A stretch of 45,074 nucleotides of DNA from a bacterium (GTDB lineage Bacteria > SZUA-79 > Acidulodesulfobacterales > Acidulodesulfobacteraceae). The notes beneath the pieces were generated by a model that saw only the letters and a program-made list of their open reading frames with translations, had not been told where the DNA came from and searched no databases. The stretch lies in NCBI GenBank assembly GCA_027319095.1, contig DAHVNW010000014.1:1-45074 (forward strand), read 5' to 3'. Each line of letters begins with the position of its first letter. The stretch's first letter is position 1. Below, piece by piece: positions 5,021 to 24,124 of the stretch. Made by a program: the position numbers and the translations under genes.

Positions 5021-5431
5021 CTAACTTAACGCATACAAGCCTTCCTCTGCCGTCCTGATTCTTTCCGCCAGCCCGACGGGTATAATAAATATTTTGCCGT
5101 CGCCGTAATGGCTCGATTGGTTAATGCTTATAATGATTTTTATAATTTTTTTCACCTCTTTTTCTAATACAACGATTGAAATCATCCTTTTGGGTAAAAA
5201 ATAAAAATCGTTGTCGGCACTGAAATCAGAGTTTGGATTAATTTTATTTAATCCTGGATCGAGTTCGTTTGCGAGTCCGCCCTGTCCCTTTTGTTTTCCC
5301 CTGCCGTGAACCGAATAGAACGTCATCTGGCTAAAACCTTCGTTATCGAGGGCCGATTTCGTTTCCTGGACTTTATGCCTTCTTATTATAGCTAAAATTT
5401 CTACTATTTTTTCTTCAAAGCGGGATTCCAT
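5021..5431 (-). CDS. nifI2: NifI2, PII-type nitrogenase regulator
   Basis: NifI1 and NifI2 form a PII complex that shuts off nitrogenase activity in response to ammonium by binding the MoFe protein; 2-oxoglutarate relieves it. The 136-residue product has the PII core with GRGKQKGQGG, a longer T-loop insert (about residues 50-75) typical of NifI2, and the C-terminal signature SHYGDGKIFIIPV. The usual T-loop tyrosine of GlnB is absent. It is the last gene of the nif operon, 90 bases after nifI1. In most genomes with these genes they sit between nifH and nifD, so this position is unusual. It has a TCCTCC-complement ribosome site. Confidence 0.88.
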   Translation of the reverse strand: MESRFEEKIVEILAIIRRHKVQETKSALDNEGFSQMTFYSVHGRGKQKGQGGLANELDPGLNKINPNSDFSADNDFYFLPKRMISIVVLEKEVKKIIKIIISINQSSHYGDGKIFIIPVGLAERIRTAEEGLYALS

Positions 5432-5521
5432 CGATAGTCCTCCTATTTATCCAAGTATCCGGTTCGAAATCGGATACCCTTCTTTTTTTAAAGTAACAAA
5501 CATATAAAATATATAAACCGG

Positions 5522-5842
5522 TTACAGCCCTTCCGCTCCGGTCCTTACCGTATATGCGTTAGATACCGGAATGACGAATATTTTCCCGTCTCCTATATGT
5601 CCGGTAACGGCATTTTCCTGAATAATATCGCAAACCTTTCCCGCGTCTTTTTTGTCCACGACTATCATCATCTCTAATTTAGGCAACTCGTCGTAAACTA
5701 TATCGCCTACTTTAATGCCTTTTTGTTTTCCTCTTCCGAATACATGCATTTTGGTAACCGAAACAAACCCGCTTTCTTCAAGCGCTTTAAGAACGTCTTT
5801 TTCTTTTTCAGGCCTTATAATTGCCCTAACCATTTCCATCAT
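5522..5842 (-). CDS. nifI1: NifI1, PII-type nitrogenase regulator
   Basis: The 106-residue product is a compact PII protein: MEMVRAIIRPEKEKDVLKAL, FGRGKQKGIKVGD and the C-terminal GHIGDGKIFVIPVSNAYTVRTGAEG. The short T-loop (about 38-55) fits NifI1. It partners with NifI2 in post-translational control of nitrogenase. The presence of both, rather than a DraT/DraG pair, suggests archaeal/clostridial/deltaproteobacterial-type control. The second Met (residue 2) is an equally good start. The gene follows the ANTAR regulator after 31 bases. Confidence 0.9.
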   Translation of the reverse strand: MMEMVRAIIRPEKEKDVLKALEESGFVSVTKMHVFGRGKQKGIKVGDIVYDELPKLEMMIVVDKKDAGKVCDIIQENAVTGHIGDGKIFVIPVSNAYTVRTGAEGL

Positions 5843-5873
5843 GATAACTCTCCTTATTTTTTATTATTGGTTT

Positions 5874-6479
5874 TTATGAATCTGTTAAAATAATCGCTTT
5901 TGCAATTTCTTCTATCGGGCGTCCGCTGTTCATGCTCAGCTTTTGTAGCCTCCGATGCGCTTCCCTCTCCGAAATCCCTTCTTTTTCTATTAAAATATTT
6001 TTCGCTTTTCCGATTAATTTTCTATCTTTTATATACTGCTTTAAATTTTCGTTTTCTTTTTTTATGTCACGAAATTTTTTAAAATTTTCTATTGCTATTA
6101 TAGTCTGGGCTAAAATCTCGCTTTTTTTAGCTGGCTTTACTATGTAAGAGAATGCTCCCGACTCTTTCAATTCTTCCATATATTTATCGTAATATTCTAC
6201 GTCATCTGCTCCTGCGGTTAAAAAAATAATAGGAATAGGGCTCTTCTCCATAATTTTTTTGCAGGCAGTGATTCCGTCCATAGACGGCATTTTAATGTCC
6301 ATAAAAATAATATCAGGCTTAAATTCGTCTGCCGATATTACAGCCGCCGCACCGTTATCGGCTTCATATATATTAACCGTAATAGAATTTAAAATAAGTT
6401 TAAGCTCCTCCCTTCTTTCTTTTAAATCGTCAACTATTAAAACTTTTATATTTAAATCTAAACCTTTATCGTTTTTCAT
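5874..6479 (-). CDS. response regulator with RNA-binding ANTAR domain (GnfR-like)
   Basis: The 201-residue protein has a receiver domain (about 10-125) with the acidic pair D17-D18, phosphoacceptor D61 in FMDIKMPSMDG, T88 and K115. After a short coiled coil comes an ANTAR domain (about 145-198: LIGKAKNILIEKEGISEREA...LQKLSMNSGRPIEEIAKAII). ANTAR domains bind paired small RNA hairpins and prevent termination. In Geobacter sulfurreducens the comparable GnfR regulates nif genes by antitermination. This gene sits inside the nif operon between nifX and nifI1, and the nifH leader contains exactly the required kind of terminator. No partner histidine kinase gene is in the window. Confidence 0.88.
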   Translation of the reverse strand: MKNDKGLDLNIKVLIVDDLKERREELKLILNSITVNIYEADNGAAAVISADEFKPDIIFMDIKMPSMDGITACKKIMEKSPIPIIFLTAGADDVEYYDKYMEELKESGAFSYIVKPAKKSEILAQTIIAIENFKKFRDIKKENENLKQYIKDRKLIGKAKNILIEKEGISEREAHRRLQKLSMNSGRPIEEIAKAIILTDS

Positions 6480-6493
6480 AATTTAGTTTGTTA

Positions 6494-6895
6494 TCATGCA
6501 ATGTTTGTGCCATTTGCAACCCCGCTTGTTTTCCCGCTTTCTCTAATAATAATTTTTTTCAGCCATGGCGGCGGATTTTTAGATAAAACTTCCCTTAAAT
6601 CTTCCATTACTTCTTCTATTTTATCGTTAGGCTTGGATTTTACGGGATGAATGCCGGACTTTATAACTCTTGCGGCAGCCGTCCCGCCTATGCTTTCTAC
6701 GAAGATAATCTTTAAATCTTTTAAGCCTTCTATTTTCTTATCTATTTTATTGAGTTCTTCATTTTCTTCTTCAAAATGCCTGTTTTCCAGAAAATTAAAA
6801 CCGCTTTCGTTTACTTCGTAAACTGCAAAATTTTTAGCCCATCCAAAATGGTCGTTGATTAAAATATTATCATTCGTCGCAAAACCTACTTTCAT
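6494..6895 (-). CDS. nifX: NifX/dinitrogenase iron-molybdenum cofactor biosynthesis protein
   Basis: This small carrier of the NifX/NifY/NafY family binds NifB-co or FeMo-co precursors and moves them between NifB, NifEN and the MoFe protein. The product of 133 residues starts MKVGFATND and carries the domain's NDHFGWAKNFAVYEV and GGTAAARVIKSGIHPV segments. An upstream frame allows a start at 6943, but AGGAGG at a spacing of 5 before 6895 makes that the better start. The C-terminal Pro-rich segment (NPPPWLKK) is an extra helix. NifB here lacks the fused NifX domain some lineages have, so this free-standing copy is consistent. Confidence 0.85.
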   Translation of the reverse strand: MKVGFATNDNILINDHFGWAKNFAVYEVNESGFNFLENRHFEEENEELNKIDKKIEGLKDLKIIFVESIGGTAAARVIKSGIHPVKSKPNDKIEEVMEDLREVLSKNPPPWLKKIIIRESGKTSGVANGTNIA

Positions 6896-6948
6896 AATAA
6901 CCTCCTGTTTTGTTATGGGGATAAATTTCAAATCTGTCCCCATATTAT

Positions 6949-8247
6949 TTACTCTTTATTAAGCAAATTTGCAGTTTGCACGGCAAGATTTAACGCTCCT
7001 TCATAAAGAATATACTGTTTATAATTATGTCCTATCTCGTCTATTATTGGAAATCCCGCTTTTAATAACGGTATGCCTAAACTTTCGGCATAAAATTTAG
7101 CGTTTGAATTAGAAACTATCAAACCTATATTTCCGTTGCCGCTTTTACACAATAAATCAAGATCGCCGTCATAAAAATTAGAAAATCTCCGTGCAACGTC
7201 ATCGTCAAATTTTGTAGATATGCCTGTTTGTAAATTTACCCCTATTTCCGAATAAATTGCCGAAAAAGAATCTAAAAGGTCTATTTCTAGCGCAATGGCA
7301 ATATCTTTCCCCGTTAAATAAAAATGGCTGTCTAAATATGCGTCCATAAGTCTTCTCCTGTCTCTTTTATATTTTTCCGGAATTTCTTTACCGGTAATTT
7401 CCGATAGAAAATTAAAAAGCTTATCGCTGTTTTTTAATCCGCATATATTATGAAAGTAATGCGTCTTTAATCCCGTTAATTCTTCGATGTCTTTAATGGC
7501 GGTTTTAAGGCTAGAACCTATTATTAAATTTAATTCTGCACTTTTAATTTCCCTTAAATCTTGGACGTTTAATCCGCCCGAAGTAGTTTGCAAATACCCC
7601 CTTTCGTCCAAATGGCCGTCTAAAGACAAACCTAAATCAGGAATCATAACCTGTTTTAATCCAAAATAATCTAATGCTTCGCGCAGCTCCAAAAAATCCT
7701 GAGGCGTAAACGAAGGCGGACAAAAAATATTTATGGTTTTTGTATTTTTATTAGATCTTTTAAGAGGTTTACCTTGTGCTGTTTTAACCGCTTCGTTTAA
7801 CAGCGACAACATTGCCGTAATGTAGCCTTCTTCAAATCCGCCCTTATAATCCGGAGTCGAGGCATATATTAAGTTTGCAAAAGAATCTTCTTGCTCCGCC
7901 TTAAAATCTTTAATAATGCTTTCTATGTCTTCGCCGTTTGTCTCGGTAAGGCCTGAAGACGCAATTCCTATAAAATCTGGCTTCATTTTTTCATAAACAT
8001 TTTTAACCCCCGCCGTCATAAATTCGTTTCCGCCTAGAATAGCGCCGGATTCGTTTAACGCCGTGGTTACTATTGGAATATTTTCACGAAAATGCTTGGT
8101 AAGGGTTACTTTGTCGAAACTTGCGCAGCCTACCGCCCCGTGCATAAGAACGACGGCATTGTTAAGTCCCAGAAAAAATACCGCCGCACCGAGAGAAGAA
8201 CTTGTTCTTAACGGATTTATTTCGATATTTTTAATTAAATTAGTCAT
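6949..8247 (-). CDS. nifN: NifN, FeMo-cofactor scaffold subunit
   Basis: NifN pairs with NifE to form the scaffold on which the NifB-co cluster matures into FeMo-co. The 432-residue product starts near INPLRTSSSLGAAVFFLGLNNAVVLMHGAVGC, the NifN version of the cluster-binding region, and keeps HFRENIPIVTTALNES and the Rossmann-like C-terminal domains (GFPIIDEIG). The first cysteine seen in MoFe proteins is replaced (TSSSLG), which is common in NifN. It is preceded by the structured repeat at 8251-8366, which ends at its ribosome-binding site (TCCTCC complement). Confidence 0.92.
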   Translation of the reverse strand: MTNLIKNIEINPLRTSSSLGAAVFFLGLNNAVVLMHGAVGCASFDKVTLTKHFRENIPIVTTALNESGAILGGNEFMTAGVKNVYEKMKPDFIGIASSGLTETNGEDIESIIKDFKAEQEDSFANLIYASTPDYKGGFEEGYITAMLSLLNEAVKTAQGKPLKRSNKNTKTINIFCPPSFTPQDFLELREALDYFGLKQVMIPDLGLSLDGHLDERGYLQTTSGGLNVQDLREIKSAELNLIIGSSLKTAIKDIEELTGLKTHYFHNICGLKNSDKLFNFLSEITGKEIPEKYKRDRRRLMDAYLDSHFYLTGKDIAIALEIDLLDSFSAIYSEIGVNLQTGISTKFDDDVARRFSNFYDGDLDLLCKSGNGNIGLIVSNSNAKFYAESLGIPLLKAGFPIIDEIGHNYKQYILYEGALNLAVQTANLLNKE

Positions 8248-8250
8248 AAT

Positions 8251-8366
8251 TCCTCCTCACATTTAAATACATAATTAAGCCGCTTTGCGGCTTTTAAAGG
8301 CTAAGCATATTCTTCCGCTAAAAAGCAGTGCTTTTTAATGCCCGCGGAAGAATATATGCCGATCTC
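8251..8366. repeat. structured intercistronic repeat, copy 1 (nifE-nifN)
   Basis: This element has two hairpins. The first, 8308-8355, has 12-base arms ATATTCTTCCGC and GCGGAAGAATAT around a nested AAAAAGC/GCTTTTT stem. The second, about 8277-8293, is AAGCCGC-TTT-GCGGCTT. A second copy lies at 13852-14030, also inside the nif operon between two genes. On the minus strand the element supplies the last codons and stop of nifE and ends in the GAGGAGG ribosome site of nifN. Between copies the second stem changes at two positions with matching changes on the other arm. Confidence 0.85.
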
Positions 8367-9703
8367 AATAATTTAAACAAGGGGGTTTTTATTTCGTAAT
8401 AAATGCGCCTGGCTAAACATTCCATGCCTTCGTAAGATGTGTAAGGCTCTAATCTTTCCTGATTTACATCCAAAAAAGGGATAAGAGATTTTATCGCGGT
8501 ATATTGATTTCTTCCTCCGGCCATTATAAGGTCGGCATCGTTTTCTTTTGCAATTTTAATAAGATTTACGGGATTGCCGTTATCGAGCAATATAATATTT
8601 CCGTTTTTATCGAATTCCTTTATTCTTATCTTATCTTCTTCGGTACTCTTTTTAATTCCCGTTGCAATAACTCTTATTCCTATATCGTTTAAAGCGGAAA
8701 TTAAAGACCAGCTTTTAACTCCGCCGGTATATAAAAGAATTTTTTTGCCCGTTAAAAATTTCTTGTATTCATAAATTTCGTATTCGGTTTTTCTCGTCAT
8801 TAATTCTATATAATTTTCCGCTTTATTTTTAAGACTTTTATTGCCGATAGCGCTCACAATATCTATAATAGCTTTGTTGGTCGAAGACATTCCGAAAAAA
8901 GATTCTTCGATATAAGGAATGCCGAATTTTTCCTTCATTTTTCTTGCAAGATATACTAAAGCCTTGGAACATATTACGACGTTTAACTCGGCTTTATACG
9001 AATACATTATTTCTTCCACGGTAGAATCTCCGGTAATAGTGGAAAGAACATTTATGCCGATGGATTTTAAGGCCTTTTTTATCAAAAAAAGTTCTCCTTT
9101 GATATTGTATTCGCCTATTAAATTAATATTAAAATCTTCGAGCATATCTATGGAAGGCGCTTTTTTTCCTATAATATGCGTAAAAAGAGCTTCGCCAGCA
9201 ATCTTATTTCCAAGATTTTTGTTTCCCGAAAATCCCTGAGAGAAAACAGGAACTACCGGGATCTTCAGTTTAACCGTGAGTTCTTTGGAAGCCGATTCGA
9301 TATCTTCGCCGGTCAATGCGGGGACGCATGTATTATAAACGAATATCCCTTTCGGTTTAAACCTGTTGAATGCATAGGTGATTCCGTGTTTTAATTTATA
9401 TTCCGAACCGAAAATCAGGTCGTTTTCATTAATTGCAGTCGTAAAGCCGTACATATAGTATTCTTTCCCTTTGAGCGCTTTAGAAGTCCTTTGATTATAA
9501 CTATTTCCAAGGCAATTTATGGGTGCATGAACGATATTTAAAGCGTCTTTTATTGGGCTTAAAACTATATATGCCCCGTCAAGCGCGCATCCGCCGGTAG
9601 CAGAACCGGGCGTCGCGGTTTTGCAGGCTTTTTTTTCCTTAGCAACGCCGTTATGCTCGCACGCCGGTTCATCAAAATATTCTTCTTTCGCAACTATGCC
9701 CAT
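8318..9703 (-). CDS. nifE: NifE, FeMo-cofactor scaffold subunit
   Basis: NifE is the alpha-like half of the NifEN scaffold. The 461-residue product has the NifE signature ATGGCALDGAYIVLSPIKDA, then HAPINCLGNSYNQR (cluster-binding cysteines near residues 39 and 64), VYNTCVPALTGEDIESA, and the C-terminal YTGGVKSWSL and TSYEGMECLARRIY segments. The last residues (LPRALKSTAF) are encoded within the intercistronic repeat, so the C-terminus has been reshaped by it. It is 42 bases after nifK. Confidence 0.93.
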   Translation of the reverse strand: MGIVAKEEYFDEPACEHNGVAKEKKACKTATPGSATGGCALDGAYIVLSPIKDALNIVHAPINCLGNSYNQRTSKALKGKEYYMYGFTTAINENDLIFGSEYKLKHGITYAFNRFKPKGIFVYNTCVPALTGEDIESASKELTVKLKIPVVPVFSQGFSGNKNLGNKIAGEALFTHIIGKKAPSIDMLEDFNINLIGEYNIKGELFLIKKALKSIGINVLSTITGDSTVEEIMYSYKAELNVVICSKALVYLARKMKEKFGIPYIEESFFGMSSTNKAIIDIVSAIGNKSLKNKAENYIELMTRKTEYEIYEYKKFLTGKKILLYTGGVKSWSLISALNDIGIRVIATGIKKSTEEDKIRIKEFDKNGNIILLDNGNPVNLIKIAKENDADLIMAGGRNQYTAIKSLIPFLDVNQERLEPYTSYEGMECLARRIYYEIKTPLFKLLRSAYILPRALKSTAF

Positions 9704-9745: not shown

Positions 9746-11173
9746 CTATCTTAAAAGCTCGAAATGAGCATCGTCCGAAGTATCGTCGAGAATGTCTAAA
9801 AATTTATTTACAATCCATGTCGTGAGGTTTATTACGCCAGTATAGCCGTAGAGAGGATAGCGGTGAATATTAACCCTGTCGAATATTGGATATCCTACCC
9901 TGATGTGAGGAATGCCGGCATCCCTTGCGGCGAATTTGCCGTGGGACGGCCCTATTAGCATATCGGCCTTATCGGTCATCAGGAGCGATCTTAAATGCCA
10001 TAAATCTTTATCTATATAAACCTCTCCCTCGCTTGCGGAATAATTTTCGAATAAATCTTCTATTTCTTTTTTGAATTCCTCGTTGCCGTTAGAACATAAC
10101 ACATACTTGGGAATACCGCCCATTTCCAAAAGATAGCTTACAAGCCCTACCAGTAAATCCGGGTCGCCGAATACCGCAAATTTCTTTCCATGTATATACT
10201 GCTGGGCATCGGTCATGCAGTCGATGGCCTTTCCTCTTTCGTCTTCGAGCTCTTTTGGAATTTCGAGCCTTGAAATTTCGGATACCGTCATTAAAAAATC
10301 GTCGGTATAATTTATGCCTATGGGACTTTTAACTACCCTGGCATCCTGTCCTAATTTTTCGGATAAAGTCGCAACGGTTTTTTTAGTCGAATATCGCTGT
10401 AATGCAATCGTCGCCTTATTATTTGCGCACGTTTTCACATCTTCCAGCTTAGTCGCCCCTTCCGGATACATTTTATATTCGCCGTTTAGCGGATAATCCA
10501 ATGTATTGGAATAATCTGCAAGAACAAGGAATTTTGCTCCGAAAATTTTTAAAATCCTTTTAATTTCGTTAATATTGCCTAAGGTTGTGTCAAAACCCGG
10601 AATAATATTTATAACGTCTGTTTTTTCCATTCCGGCTTCGGGTTTTTTTGCAATACCTTCTATTATTGCATTGAGCATGTTATCGTAGCCTTCTAGCTGA
10701 GAGCCTACGAAACTAGGGGTATTGGCGTAAGGCGCTAAAATATCTTCTGCGAGACGCCCCTTTTCCCTTGCGTTTGCCACTATAGAACCTAAATCGTCTC
10801 CTATAATTTCAGACATACAAGTCGTCGATATAGCAAACATCTTTGGCTTATAAAGGTCGGCCGCATTTTTAAAACCTTCGAACGCGTTTGCCTGTCCTCC
10901 GAAAACCGCGCCGTCCTCGGTAAGGGACGTGCTTACGGCGGCCAAAGGCTCTCTGAAATGCCTTGAAAGATTATTTCTGTAATATGCGACGCATCCATGA
11001 GAACCGTGAACGAATGACATAGTATTTTCAAACCCTACGGCGCATAATACCGCTCCAAGCGGTTGACACGCTCTTTCGGGATTTATAACAATGGCCTGCC
11101 TGTTAAAGTTTTTTTCTTTATACTCTTCCGTGTTCATCCACTCTTTTATCTTTTTTACTTCTTCTTTTTCCAT
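9746..11173 (-). CDS. nifK: NifK, nitrogenase MoFe protein beta chain
   Basis: NifK is the beta subunit of dinitrogenase. P-cluster cysteines are at C36 (ACQPLGAVLC), C61 (GSHGC) and near 119 (STTCMSEIIGDD). The segments HFREPLAAVSTSLTEDGAVFGG and GDPDLLVGLVSYLLEMGG are typical. The frame is open to 11224, but a strong AGGAGG lies 11 bases before the ATG at 11173 and the short N-terminus (MEKEEVKKIKEWMNTEEYKEKNF) matches the family, giving 475 residues. It is transcribed after nifD and before nifE. Confidence 0.95.
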   Translation of the reverse strand: MEKEEVKKIKEWMNTEEYKEKNFNRQAIVINPERACQPLGAVLCAVGFENTMSFVHGSHGCVAYYRNNLSRHFREPLAAVSTSLTEDGAVFGGQANAFEGFKNAADLYKPKMFAISTTCMSEIIGDDLGSIVANAREKGRLAEDILAPYANTPSFVGSQLEGYDNMLNAIIEGIAKKPEAGMEKTDVINIIPGFDTTLGNINEIKRILKIFGAKFLVLADYSNTLDYPLNGEYKMYPEGATKLEDVKTCANNKATIALQRYSTKKTVATLSEKLGQDARVVKSPIGINYTDDFLMTVSEISRLEIPKELEDERGKAIDCMTDAQQYIHGKKFAVFGDPDLLVGLVSYLLEMGGIPKYVLCSNGNEEFKKEIEDLFENYSASEGEVYIDKDLWHLRSLLMTDKADMLIGPSHGKFAARDAGIPHIRVGYPIFDRVNIHRYPLYGYTGVINLTTWIVNKFLDILDDTSDDAHFELLR

Positions 11174-11271
11174 AATATCTATAACCTCCTTTTTTATGCC
11201 GGCATCCCTAAAAATATGCCCCATATCTTATATTCGTTATTTATACCTTTAAATTAAACTATGACCGTATA

Positions 11272-12708
11272 TTACTTTTTCCAGCGCGGCTTGACTAATT
11301 TCCATGCCGGGCTGTTTATGGCAAGGTCCATATCTCTTGCAAAAATTTCAAAGCCGTCGTAGCCATGGTAAGGACCGGAATAATCCCAAGAGTGCATCTG
11401 CCTGAACGGTATCCCCATTTTTTGAAAAACGTATTTTTCTTTTATGCCGGAAGCGACTAAATCCGGTTTAAGCCTGTTTGCAAGCTCAACTAACTCGTAT
11501 TCGTTCATATCGTCGGCTATGATTGACCCGTCCTCCAATTCTTTCGTCGTCCTTTCGTAATCGTCGCTATGCGCAAACTCGTATGCGGTGGCTACCACTT
11601 TCATACCTAAATCTTCATAAGCGCCTACTATATGGCGCGGCCTTAAGCCTCCTACCAGCATCATTACTTTTTTACCTTCGAGCCTTGGGCGGTATTTGTC
11701 TATTATTTGCTGCATTTTCGGCTCGTAAGATTTGATAACATTTTCGGCTTTTTCTTGAATATTCCCGTCGAATAGTTTAGCTATTTTTCTTATACTTTCC
11801 TTTATTTTAGTATGACCGAAAAAGTTATATTCAACCCATGGAATCCCGAATTTTTCTTCGAAGTGGGTCGCTATGTAATTCATCGACCTGTAGCAGTGGA
11901 GCAAAAGATAATTAACTCCGTGGGTTATTTTCATCTCTTCGATAGAACCGTCCCCCGACCAGTGGGCAACAACGTTAAGCCCCATTTCTTTAAAAATTTT
12001 CATGGAAGACCAGACGTCTCCCCCTATGTTATAGTCGCCGAGTATCGCAACGTCGTAAGGAGTTTTTTTGCTTTCGTCTATTTTGCCGGTTCCAACTACG
12101 AAATCCCTTATCGAATCGTTTGCTATATGATGTCCAAGCGACTGGCTAACCCCCCTGAAACCTTCGCATCTTACCGGAATTACCGGAATGCCTGTTTCGT
12201 CCGTCATCTTTTTTGCGACGGCTTCTATATCGTCGCCTATAAGGCCTATTGGACATTCCGATTCTATAACTATGCCTTTTGCGGTGGGAAACAATTCGTG
12301 CAGCTCTTTAATCGCCTGTTCCAATTTCTTGTCCCCTCCGAACACTATATCCCTTTCTTTAAAATCGGTCGTAAACTGAAAAGGAACAAAACTTTCGACT
12401 GCAGTTTCTCCGTTCGCGAGGTTCCTTCTCGTACCCCAGCTGTAATGGCCGCAGCCTATCGGACCGTGGCTTATATTTATTACATCCTTAACCGGTCCCC
12501 AGACGACGCCCTTAGACCCCGCATATGCGCAACCTCGCGGCGTCATAACGCCGGGGAGGGATTTTATGTTCGATTTCGCCACGCAGCTGCCGCATGTTTC
12601 GCGGCTATTAACGCCGATATGCTCTTTTCTGTTTTTTTTTGCTCTTTCGGAATAAACGCTTATAACTTCCTCGATTAATACCTCTTTTTCCTTAAAATCG
12701 ACAGCCAT
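11272..12708 (-). CDS. nifD: NifD, nitrogenase MoFe protein alpha chain
   Basis: NifD holds the FeMo-cofactor, the site of N2 reduction. The 478-residue product has P-cluster cysteines C60 (RGCAYAG), C86 ([10 protein letters not shown]) and the Cys of [12 protein letters not shown] near 152. The cofactor Cys is in CYRSMNYI and its His in [17 protein letters not shown]. The Val, Gln and His that gate substrate ([12 protein letters not shown]) and the Arg in VGGLRPRH are all present. These features mark a molybdenum enzyme, not a vanadium or iron-only one: there is also no anfG/vnfG gene after it. An extra CGSC near residues 39-42 precedes the first ligand. Confidence 0.96.
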
Positions 12709-12782: not shown

Positions 12783-13082
12783 CTAGTTTTTAACGAGCGG
12801 AGAAAATTTATGTAAATGCATAGTTTTATTTTTTGGACATACTTTCTCGCAGCATGTATCGCCGATACAATTATCCAAACTTTCAATTTTTACGATCATC
12901 TTGTCTCCGTCGTCCTCAAATATATAAACTCCTCCCGGACAAACCTTAATGCATCTTCCGCACGATATGCAATTTTCCTGGTCGAATTCCACAAGAAAGT
13001 GCGGAACCCATTTACCGCCGGAACGCCTCGGCGCGCTGACGTAATCTTCCACGTTTCCCTTAAAACCTGCCATAATGCTCAT
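12783..13082 (-). CDS. fdxB: nif-specific 2[4Fe-4S] ferredoxin (FdxB/ferredoxin III-like)
   Basis: The 99-residue product resembles nif-specific ferredoxin III: GGKWVPHFLVEFDQENC leads into a classical C-x2-C-x2-C-x3-C-P motif (CISCGRCIKVCP). The second motif is non-standard, CIGDTCCEKVCP, with four residues between the first two cysteines and two adjacent cysteines. It may form a cluster with altered spacing. It probably supplies electrons to nitrogenase or to NifB/NifEN. It overlaps the upstream methyltransferase gene by 23 bases, so the two are probably translationally coupled. Confidence 0.8.
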   Translation of the reverse strand: MSIMAGFKGNVEDYVSAPRRSGGKWVPHFLVEFDQENCISCGRCIKVCPGGVYIFEDDGDKMIVKIESLDNCIGDTCCEKVCPKNKTMHLHKFSPLVKN

Positions 13083-13845
13083 ATTTATCTTGCCCCCTTT
13101 TAAATATTCTTATCCTTAAATCGAGTCCGTCCGCAATTATTTCGCAATTATCCTTCAGACCGGCATCTTTTAAATATTTTTCATACTCGCCTATATCTAA
13201 AGAACAGTTTAATTTGCGTCTTAAAGAATTCGCCTTTTGCAGCTTCATATCTTTTGTGAGAAAATTAAACTCATCTTCCGCTATATCCTTCCTAAATTCA
13301 TAAATGAAAACTTCTCCGCCTGGACTTAATACCCTGTATATTTCTTTTAAGGAATTTTGCTTATCTTCCAAACATTTAAACGTCCCTTTAAGTATTATTA
13401 AATCGAATAAACAGTCCTCGAAAGGAAGATTGGAGCTGTCGGCAACGATATATTTCAGCCTGTAATTGCTTAAATAACCTTCATTTCTTAACATGGCAAA
13501 TGCTTCTTTATATGCTTTATGCGTTATGAATGCGACTTGTTTTTTAAAAATATCCCTGACAACTTTTTCGGCATGATTAATCATAACCGGCGATTTATCG
13601 GCTCCGAAAACCGAAGAATTAGGCAAAACCTCGCATATTCTTCTTGCTATATAGCCGGGACCGCAGCCCAGATCAAGAATCCTCGACGGGATGAAGGAAA
13701 TATCGTTTAAAACTTTATCTACGAAAGGAATATAATCTTCCTCCATTTTTATTTTAGTATCGCTTGTCGCTATATAAAGCTCTTCGTCCTGAGAAAAACT
13801 TATAGCTTTTGAAAGCTTGCAACCTAATACGCCGACGTCTTGCAT
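13060..13845 (-). CDS. class I SAM-dependent methyltransferase in the nif operon
   Basis: The 261-residue protein has a class I methyltransferase domain: motif I ILDLGCGPGYIARRI, an acidic end of strand 2 (GADKSP), the post-I segment IVADSSNLPFED and motif IV LIILKGTFKCLED. The C-terminal part (about 190-260) is unassigned. The start at 13845 follows AGGAGG at a spacing of 6; the longer frame from 13860 begins inside that ribosome site. The gene lies between nifB and the ferredoxin gene and overlaps the latter, so it belongs to the nif transcript. No methyltransferase is known in the core nitrogenase assembly path; the substrate is unknown. Confidence 0.8.
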   Translation of the reverse strand: MQDVGVLGCKLSKAISFSQDEELYIATSDTKIKMEEDYIPFVDKVLNDISFIPSRILDLGCGPGYIARRICEVLPNSSVFGADKSPVMINHAEKVVRDIFKKQVAFITHKAYKEAFAMLRNEGYLSNYRLKYIVADSSNLPFEDCLFDLIILKGTFKCLEDKQNSLKEIYRVLSPGGEVFIYEFRKDIAEDEFNFLTKDMKLQKANSLRRKLNCSLDIGEYEKYLKDAGLKDNCEIIADGLDLRIRIFKRGQDKYEHYGRF

Positions 13846-13997
13846 TTTAAGCCTCCTCACATTTAAATATTATAATTAAGTCGTTTCACGACTTTTAAAA
13901 AGTAAATGTTCGTCGATCTCACATTTAAATATTATAATTAAGTCGTTTCACGACTTTTAAAAAGTAAAAATATTCTTCCGCTAAAAAGCTATACTTT

Positions 13998-15858
<1,861 letters not shown>

Positions 15859-15957: not shown

Positions 15958-15990
15958 GCGCCTAATTGCGCTTATGTATTTCTTAATACA
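15958..15990 (-). promoter_or_regulatory. tandem small hairpins, candidate ANTAR antiterminator element
   Basis: Two adjacent stems separated by three bases precede the terminator: TGTAT-[TAAGAA]-ATACA (15975-15990) and GCGC-[AATTAG]-GCGC (15958-15971), each drawable with a six-base loop. This matches the layout of ANTAR targets (paired hexaloops, then terminator). The loops match the published A1/G4 preference only partly: the first has G at position 4, the second A at position 1. A further GGCG-ACGA-CGCC stem just downstream would use bases of the terminator's 5' arm. Confidence 0.55.
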
Positions 15991-16086: not shown

Positions 16087-16102
16087 TGCAATTCCCGTGC
16101 CA
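16087..16102 (-). promoter_or_regulatory. sigma-54 promoter of the nif operon
   Basis: The minus strand reads TGGCACGGGAATTGCA, matching the -24/-12 consensus TGGCACG-N4-TTGCA fully. The transcript start is expected near 16076, leaving a leader of about 257 bases before nifH. No canonical NifA site (TGT-N10-ACA) is visible upstream. Confidence 0.93.
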
Positions 16103-16353: not shown

Positions 16354-17493
16354 ATGAATAATATGAACGATATAATTATAAACGATACGACGTTGAGGGA
16401 CGGGGAACAGACGGCGGGAATAGTTTTTTCGCCTGCCGAAAAAATATACATAGCTAAAATATTAGACAAAATAGGCGTAGATGAGATAGAAGCAGGCATA
16501 CCGGTAATGGGCGGAGACGAAAAGGATGCTATAAAAAAGATTAACGAATCCGGGCTTAAAGCAAAAATCTTCGGCTGGAATAGGGCAAAACCGGATGATA
16601 TTTATGCATCTTTAGACGCTGGTCTTAAATTTATTCACGTATCGGTTCCTATATCTAAAATTCATATAGAATACAAACTTAAAAAAGATTTCGGACATGT
16701 TAAATCTAATCTTATTAGCATATTAAAGATATTAAACAGGGAAGGGGTTAAGTACTCGGTAGGCGGCGAAGATTCCTCGCGGGCGGATATGCCCTCTGTA
16801 ATTGAAATTATAGAAATTGCGCAAGGAGAAGGAGCCTACAAATTCCGCTATACCGATACGGTTGGAGTATTAAATCCGCTAAAAACATACGAAAATATAA
16901 AAATAATAAAGGACTGCGGAAAATTTAAGAATATAATGCTTGAAATCCATACCCACAACGACTTCGGAATGGCTTCGGCTAATTCGGTCGCCGCAATAAC
17001 GGCTGGCGCAGATTCTTTATCCGGCAGCATTTCGGGAATAGGGGAGCGTGCCGGAAACTGCGCTTTGGAAGAGGTAATAGCCTATTTCAACTTTATAGAA
17101 AATCAAAATATAAAATTCGATTTTTTTAAGGCAAAAAAACTTGCAAAATATATAGCAAAAATTACCGGAAGACGCATCCCCGAATCTAAGCCTGTTTTCG
17201 GCAAAAACATTTTTTATCATGAAGCGGGAATCCATACGGACGGTATAATAAAAAATCCGGTAAATTATGAAGCCTATCTGCCGGAATCGGTCGGGGCAAA
17301 AAGAAAGCTTTTAATAGGAAAACACGGGGGGTCTTCGGCAATAAAACACAAACTTAATAAAATGGGGGTTCAAATAACAGACGAGGATGCCTTAAAAATA
17401 CTTTCCGCTGTAAAAGCCAAATCGGGAAAATTAAGGAGGTGCCTCACGGATAAAGAATTATTGTCTATTTATAAAACCCTTTTAACCACTTAA
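16354..17493 (+). CDS. nifV: NifV, homocitrate synthase
   Basis: NifV condenses acetyl-CoA with 2-oxoglutarate to homocitrate, the organic ligand of FeMo-co. The 379-residue product has the DRE-TIM signature INDTTLRDGEQTAGIVFS (about 8-25), the metal-binding HTHNDFGMASANS and the GIGERAGNCALEEV segment. The length matches NifV rather than 2-isopropylmalate synthase, which carries a larger regulatory domain. It is divergent from the nif operon with its own sigma-54 promoter, and meets kdpD tail to tail with a 12-base gap. No ribosome site is visible before either possible start. Confidence 0.93.
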   Translation: MNNMNDIIINDTTLRDGEQTAGIVFSPAEKIYIAKILDKIGVDEIEAGIPVMGGDEKDAIKKINESGLKAKIFGWNRAKPDDIYASLDAGLKFIHVSVPISKIHIEYKLKKDFGHVKSNLISILKILNREGVKYSVGGEDSSRADMPSVIEIIEIAQGEGAYKFRYTDTVGVLNPLKTYENIKIIKDCGKFKNIMLEIHTHNDFGMASANSVAAITAGADSLSGSISGIGERAGNCALEEVIAYFNFIENQNIKFDFFKAKKLAKYIAKITGRRIPESKPVFGKNIFYHEAGIHTDGIIKNPVNYEAYLPESVGAKRKLLIGKHGGSSAIKHKLNKMGVQITDEDALKILSAVKAKSGKLRRCLTDKELLSIYKTLLTT

Positions 17494-23875: not shown

Positions 23876-24052
23876 TTATTTAACGTACCGACACTCTTTA
23901 ATAGCCTGCGAAGTTAGCTGACGGGCTAGGAATAAAGAGTCTTCCCCTATTTTAACTGCCGCAATAACAATAGTTTTGCGAATAGTTTTGTGCAGCTCGT
24001 TAAAATATTAGCCCCGATTTTTTGGGTCCTCCGCTCCCGTAAATTTAAATAA
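23876..24052 (-). ncRNA. c-di-AMP riboswitch (ydaO/yuaA class)
   Basis: The minus strand carries the conserved ydaO core: GGGAGCGGAGGACCC near the 5' end, TAGGGGAAGACTC in the middle, then CCTAGCCCGTCAGCTAAC and TTCGCAGGC, closing with AAAGAGTG. The outer P1 stem is TTATTTAA (complement of 24045-24052) with TTAAATAA (complement of 23876-23883). This class binds c-di-AMP and usually turns off K+ uptake or cell-wall genes, which fits a kdp operon. Confidence 0.93.
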
Positions 24053-24124
24053 TTAAATTACGGAATTAGGCTTTTGTTATAAATCTATTTCAAAGAACAA
24101 TTATCTTTAATGCTAATTTTTTAA

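Follow-up and report, generated by a model that had tools for sequence, protein, structure and literature searches.

A methyltransferase gene fixed behind nifB in one bacterial phylum, a candidate accessory factor of nitrogenase assembly

Results

The nif operon and its methyltransferase gene

The window (the whole stretch of DNA analyzed, 45,074 nucleotides) carries a minus-strand nif operon with the gene order nifH, nifB, methyltransferase, ferredoxin, nifD, nifK, nifE, nifN, and nifX. The features of the locus are as follows.

6494-6943, minus strand: nifX (TIGR02663, above cut-off)
6949-8247, minus strand: nifN (TIGR01285, above cut-off)
8318-9703, minus strand: nifE (TIGR01283, 499.9 bits, just under the cut-off of 505.1)
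9746-11224, minus strand: nifK (open reading frame, named by sequence recognition)
11272-12708, minus strand: nifD (open reading frame, named by sequence recognition)
12783-13082, minus strand: FdxN-like 4Fe-4S ferredoxin, 99 aa (Fer4_7, E = 1.6e-11; TIGR02936, 60 bits, below the cut-off of 80.55)
13060-13845, minus strand: class I SAM methyltransferase, 261 aa from the ATG (open reading frame, Pfam, alignment)
13856-14028, no strand assigned: dispersed hairpin-bearing repeat, two identical 51-nt copies plus an extension
13998-15014, minus strand: nifB (TIGR01290, 317 bits, below the cut-off of 343.65; alignment)
14956-15834, minus strand: nifH, first gene of the operon (TIGR01287, 456 bits, above cut-off)
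16087-16102, minus strand: exact sigma54 -24/-12 consensus upstream of nifH (motif scan)
16354-17493, divergent to the operon: nifV-like gene (named by recognition)

The sigma54 site at 16087-16102 is the probable promoter of the operon. Exact consensus sites occur twice in the window versus never in 100 shuffles, and 13 of the 26 operon neighborhoods (rows) compared below have a sigma54-like site upstream of nifH; of the other 13 contigs, 6 stop short of the position and 7 have the DNA with no match in it. A TGT-N10-ACA palindrome at 15990 was rejected as a NifA site because it lies downstream of the sigma54 site. Beyond nifX, an ANTAR-domain response regulator and two PII genes (5021-6479, minus strand) stand behind an exact -24/-12 site of their own (6497-6512, minus strand); an RNA-binding, antiterminator-type regulator is unusual company for nif genes. 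Elsewhere in the window, a c-di-AMP riboswitch (ydaO/yuaA leader; 23887-24082, minus strand) scored 71.6 bits against a gathering score of 38.

The first-pass annotation had read the gene behind nifB as a class I SAM methyltransferase, and both the reading frame and the family models bear this out. Pfam Methyltransf_31, _25, and _11 match the protein well above their cut-offs (E about 1e-18) and also match all 26 rows at E ≤ 1e-5. The LDLGCGPG SAM motif is retained in the alignment; the GxGxG core and the Pfam matches that mark the class I superfamily are thus both present, and the SAM-binding core of the window protein is complete. In the Pfam scan the protein matched no radical-SAM model, and among its best 25 NCBIfam matches none reached its cut-off. 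The open reading frame can be extended to a GTG (13060-13860, minus strand, 266 aa), but the in-frame ATG at 13845, which is preceded by a GAGGAGG-type ribosome-binding site, is the likelier start.

The methyltransferase gene is coupled to nifB

The 3' end of nifB contains both the methyltransferase ATG and the ribosome-binding site of the methyltransferase gene in 24 of the 26 rows, and the two genes overlap there by 22 to 35 nt, depending on the ATG used. The exceptions are the window and one relative (L054, genome G028). In the window, 152 nt separate the nifB stop codon from the methyltransferase ATG, and the methyltransferase gene instead overlaps the ferredoxin reading frame by 23 nt. 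The first-pass annotation had taken the gene to be translationally coupled to the ferredoxin. The overlap itself is real, but of the 24 rows whose conserved ferredoxin ATG could be located by script, the window alone has it; the other 23 rows have gaps of 17 to 338 nt. The start was not located in two rows, L043 and L054, the latter having no ferredoxin; in L043, an upstream start of the ferredoxin frame would give a 7-nt overlap with the methyltransferase gene. On the evidence of these gene boundaries, nifB is the conserved coupling partner, and the ferredoxin is one only by local accident.

The repeat at 13856-14028 has replaced the junction of nifB and the methyltransferase gene in the window and has altered the last residues of NifB. 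Its 51-nt copies are part of a longer element that also lies at the junction of nifN and nifE (8255-8365), where it runs into the end of nifE; the repeat has eight matches in the window's genome, itself included. In most of the relatives (L039-L063), NifB ends in a short cysteine-bearing tail, for example CKKMPC or RKCCSGV, and this tail is encoded where nifB and the start of the methyltransferase gene overlap. The tail may have a function of its own, or it may simply result from the overlap.

Distribution within and beyond the phylum

The phylum was represented by 30 genomes, all of one family, since searches at the class and the phylum level returned the same 30. Orthologues of the methyltransferase (E ≤ 1e-10) were found in 25 of them, and in every one the gene lies in the nif operon behind nifB. 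Comparison of the open reading frames around these genes with those of the window gave 26 rows from 25 genomes, genome G019 contributing two contigs with the gene. In all 26 rows nifB lies directly upstream, including the window, where nifB had already been noted as the preceding gene; the ferredoxin lies directly downstream in 25. L054, the row without a ferredoxin and without the nifB overlap, has nifD next after the methyltransferase gene. The five genomes without the gene (G010, G016, G025, G026, and G027; completeness, 65 to 99%) were found to have no true nifB either, three giving no match and two only weak partial matches with E above 1e-4. Conversely, the gene is kept in all 25 nifB-bearing genomes found, which span five genera. 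The neighborhood check suggested in the first-pass annotation hence ended in its favor: orthologues residing mostly away from nif genes would have spoken against a nif accessory factor, and what we found within the 30 genomes is residence with nif genes throughout and co-distribution with nifB. With 25 of 25 orthologues in the operon and five of five nonbearers lacking nifB, dedication of the methyltransferase to nif is well supported in the phylum. Ten weaker matches in the phylum (E of 1e-9 to 1e-10), which cover 54 to 62 positions around the SAM motif, were set aside as other methyltransferases.

Outside the phylum, a total of 1,483 genome searches, with some genomes counted twice, gave no relative at E ≤ 1e-12 (163 genomes of other families, that is, 193 searched minus the 30 of the phylum, and 295, 386, 2, 301, and 336 around five other centers); as a control, the same query matches 25 of the 30 phylum genomes. 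The presence of nifB was checked in 356 of the outside genomes, and 28 were positive at E ≤ 1e-70. The regions around these 28 genes, up to 6 kb on each side and several of them shortened by contig ends, held 1,309 open reading frames, and a search of these with the methyltransferase profile gave no match at E ≤ 1. Within the phylum, that profile recovered the gene at 32 of 32 loci, 7 of which lie on second copies of contigs already counted. A contig scan returned seven methyltransferase loci, all of them on contigs equal in length to phylum contigs already in the sample, and two plasmid nif regions used as controls have no methyltransferase beside nifB. The plasmid search gave 139 records, which were rejected: all have less than 60% identity, only one covers at least 80% of the query, and this record (from Methylocystis) has no nif gene within 6 kb. 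In the viral-contig scan, 0 of 16 candidate stretches were confirmed as the methyltransferase. The association of the methyltransferase with nif is therefore strict and known from one phylum only, and since there is no relative outside the phylum in this sample and none beside the 28 outside nifB genes, the methyltransferase is not a core step of nitrogenase assembly.

Conservation, selection, and structure

Purifying selection acts on the methyltransferase about as strongly as on nifB. Its median Ka/Ks, calculated on 12 of the 26 rows, is 0.114 (54 of 66 pairs unsaturated), compared to 0.093 for nifB, 0.098 for nifX, 0.128 for nifN, 0.053 for nifE, 0.047 for the ferredoxin, 0.028 for nifH, 0.035 for nifD, and 0.048 for nifK (9 to 12 rows per gene). 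The best-conserved part of the protein is the N-terminal segment 8-50, with 24 of 43 residues invariant, followed by the SAM-motif stretch 58-100 (20 of 43), and a length-variable insert at 101-132 has no invariant residue. Four cysteines (Cys14, Cys66, Cys163, and Cys219 in the 266-aa numbering) are Cys in all 26 rows, and every other Cys column has Cys in at most nine. Cys66 lies inside the SAM motif, where a cysteine is common, and the other three lie outside it; their invariance is suggestive rather than proof, because 92 of 246 well-filled columns (about 37%) are invariant anyway.

An AlphaFold model of the protein is a class I methyltransferase with a mean pLDDT of 74.3 and a pTM of 0.76; residues 1-22, Cys14 included, have a pLDDT below 50. 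Sequence searches of the PDB returned generic methyltransferases, and fold searches were unspecific. Assignment to the UbiE/MenG quinone methyltransferases was rejected (TIGR01934, 64.4 bits versus a cut-off of 158.35).

NifB in this operon

NifB of the window has a single radical-SAM domain and no NifX-like half. In an alignment of eight phylum sequences with three others, it keeps the radical-SAM cysteines, the HPC cysteine, and the C-terminal CxxC. Since these ligand cysteines are kept, NifB should, judging from PMC9692996, perform its own methyl transfer and carbide insertion; the same source gives a proposal that NifB transfers a methyl group to a cluster sulfide by an SN2 reaction. The idea that NifB lacks methyl-transfer equipment of its own was rejected on the same ground. 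So was the idea that the methyltransferase replaces the NifX-like half of NifB, because a nifX gene is present and single-domain NifB is described in PMC5715403 as common and active, the NifX-like domain being dispensable in Klebsiella.

Discussion

In sum, our data point toward a lineage-specific, nif-dedicated accessory SAM methyltransferase that would act together with NifB at the NifB-co (cofactor core) stage, a reading to which we give a probability of about 0.5. Co-distribution with nifB suggests that the methyltransferase is a lineage-specific helper in building nitrogenase, and it would then presumably be a working accessory factor. Action at the NifB stage would follow from gene order and coupling, since the protein is presumably made in step with NifB and its gene lies beside that of an FdxN-like ferredoxin, a kind proposed, in PMC9692996, to help reduce the clusters of NifB. 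The site of action of a protein cannot be read from gene order and coupling, however, and in our sample from outside the phylum nearly all diazotrophs do without the methyltransferase. If the stage is right, the enzyme would act on NifB or on something in the NifB reaction: it may modify NifB itself, or a compound bound through sulfur or as a metal-thiolate on its way to or from NifB, or it may protect this stage from metalloids. The target might be bound via sulfur (as a thiol, metal-thiolate, or sulfide) and held by Cys14, Cys163, and Cys219 in the way known from the arsenite methyltransferase ArsM; the conserved cysteines are the argument for this part of the model, which we consider tentative and rather doubtful.

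Among the other explanations, the methyltransferase could modify a protein, that is, methylate NifB, the ferredoxin, or a nitrogenase subunit and thereby tune its stability or activity. The coupling to nifB and the position before the ferredoxin gene are consistent with such a role, and a partner protein might bind to the strongly conserved N-terminal segment, but no protein-methyltransferase model reached its cut-off among the best 25 NCBIfam matches, and we know of no target motif for protein methylation by this enzyme. We regard protein modification as unlikely, though less so than the explanations that follow.

A further possibility is the protection from metalloids by ArsM-like methylation of arsenite or another thiophilic metal(loid), which in acidic surroundings rich in metals would shield the NifB clusters and the assembly of nitrogenase. 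The phylum is probably one of acid mine drainage, Cys219 aligns with the invariant last cysteine of the ArsM methyltransferase domain, and ArsM, which shares the class I fold, is among the Foldseek matches (6cx6, rank 35). However, Cys163 is offset from the SNC cysteine of ArsM, lying four residues beyond it, and so does not match it in place, even if both proteins have a conserved cysteine shortly after strand 4. Membership in ArsM by family model was rejected, NF008823 giving 32.9 bits versus a cut-off of 263. Furthermore, in the compared neighborhoods, in which only genes related to those of the window were named, the gene is tied to nif and to no arsenic gene. Metalloid protection as the main role is improbable.

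We consider it equally improbable that the methyltransferase is a passenger, a generic small-molecule enzyme caught in the ancestral nif operon of the phylum with no role in nitrogen fixation. Such a passenger might well be known from one phylum only and evolve faster than nifH, nifD, and nifK, as is the case here. It would not be expected to be retained in every nifB-bearing genome over five genera and to be absent from the five genomes without nifB, nor to be under selection about equal to that on nifB, and the gene is intact in the window although the repeat broke its overlap with nifB.

Finally, it is very unlikely that the enzyme methylates the sulfur of a thiolate-bound metal cluster or sulfide carrier to or from NifB and so builds the cofactor core directly, with part of the SAM methyl chemistry of the interstitial carbide, or the repair of an intermediate, done in this phylum by a separate class I enzyme that is produced along with NifB.

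Accounts of nitrogenase cofactor assembly usually name only a few genes. A methyltransferase that follows nifB in all nifB-bearing genomes sampled from one phylum, and that was seen nowhere else in the sample, would be an unlisted accessory step at a poorly understood stage of this assembly and a candidate for co-expression with NifB, an enzyme that is hard to engineer; or else it would serve to protect the assembly of the cofactor in acid water rich in metals. The gene is apparently unreported as a conserved, nif-linked gene of one phylum: no methyltransferase in a nif operon is described in the literature searched, which comprised titles and the beginnings of abstracts, mostly from outside subscription journals and bioRxiv.

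How does the methyltransferase compare to known systems? With NifB, it has in common SAM-dependent methyl transfer and the same operon, but NifB is a radical SAM carbide synthase of unrelated fold. The best structural match in VIA-align, ahead of CouO and NovO, is the uncharacterized MMP1179 of Methanococcus maripaludis (3dlc; Z = 19.7, rmsd 4.4, 210 residues aligned, 21% identity), but all 1,000 chains compared reach a Z of at least 8, and therefore no special kinship to MMP1179 is shown and the fold says little about the substrate. In a profile comparison with six ArsM proteins, the methyltransferase was matched with a probability of 97.8% over 141 columns. Cys14 lies outside the region aligned with ArsM, and the N-terminal cysteines of ArsM are not aligned; known ArsMs vary in the number of cysteines they need, according to PMC8649762. 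The likeness in cysteines may thus serve as a lead but does not indicate membership. With the UbiE/Coq5-like class I methyltransferases (Pfam Methyltransf_11/25/31, PF01209), the enzyme shares the SAM-binding core and the fold, and it is set apart from them by a conserved N-terminal segment of its own, its invariant cysteines, and its place in the nif operon.
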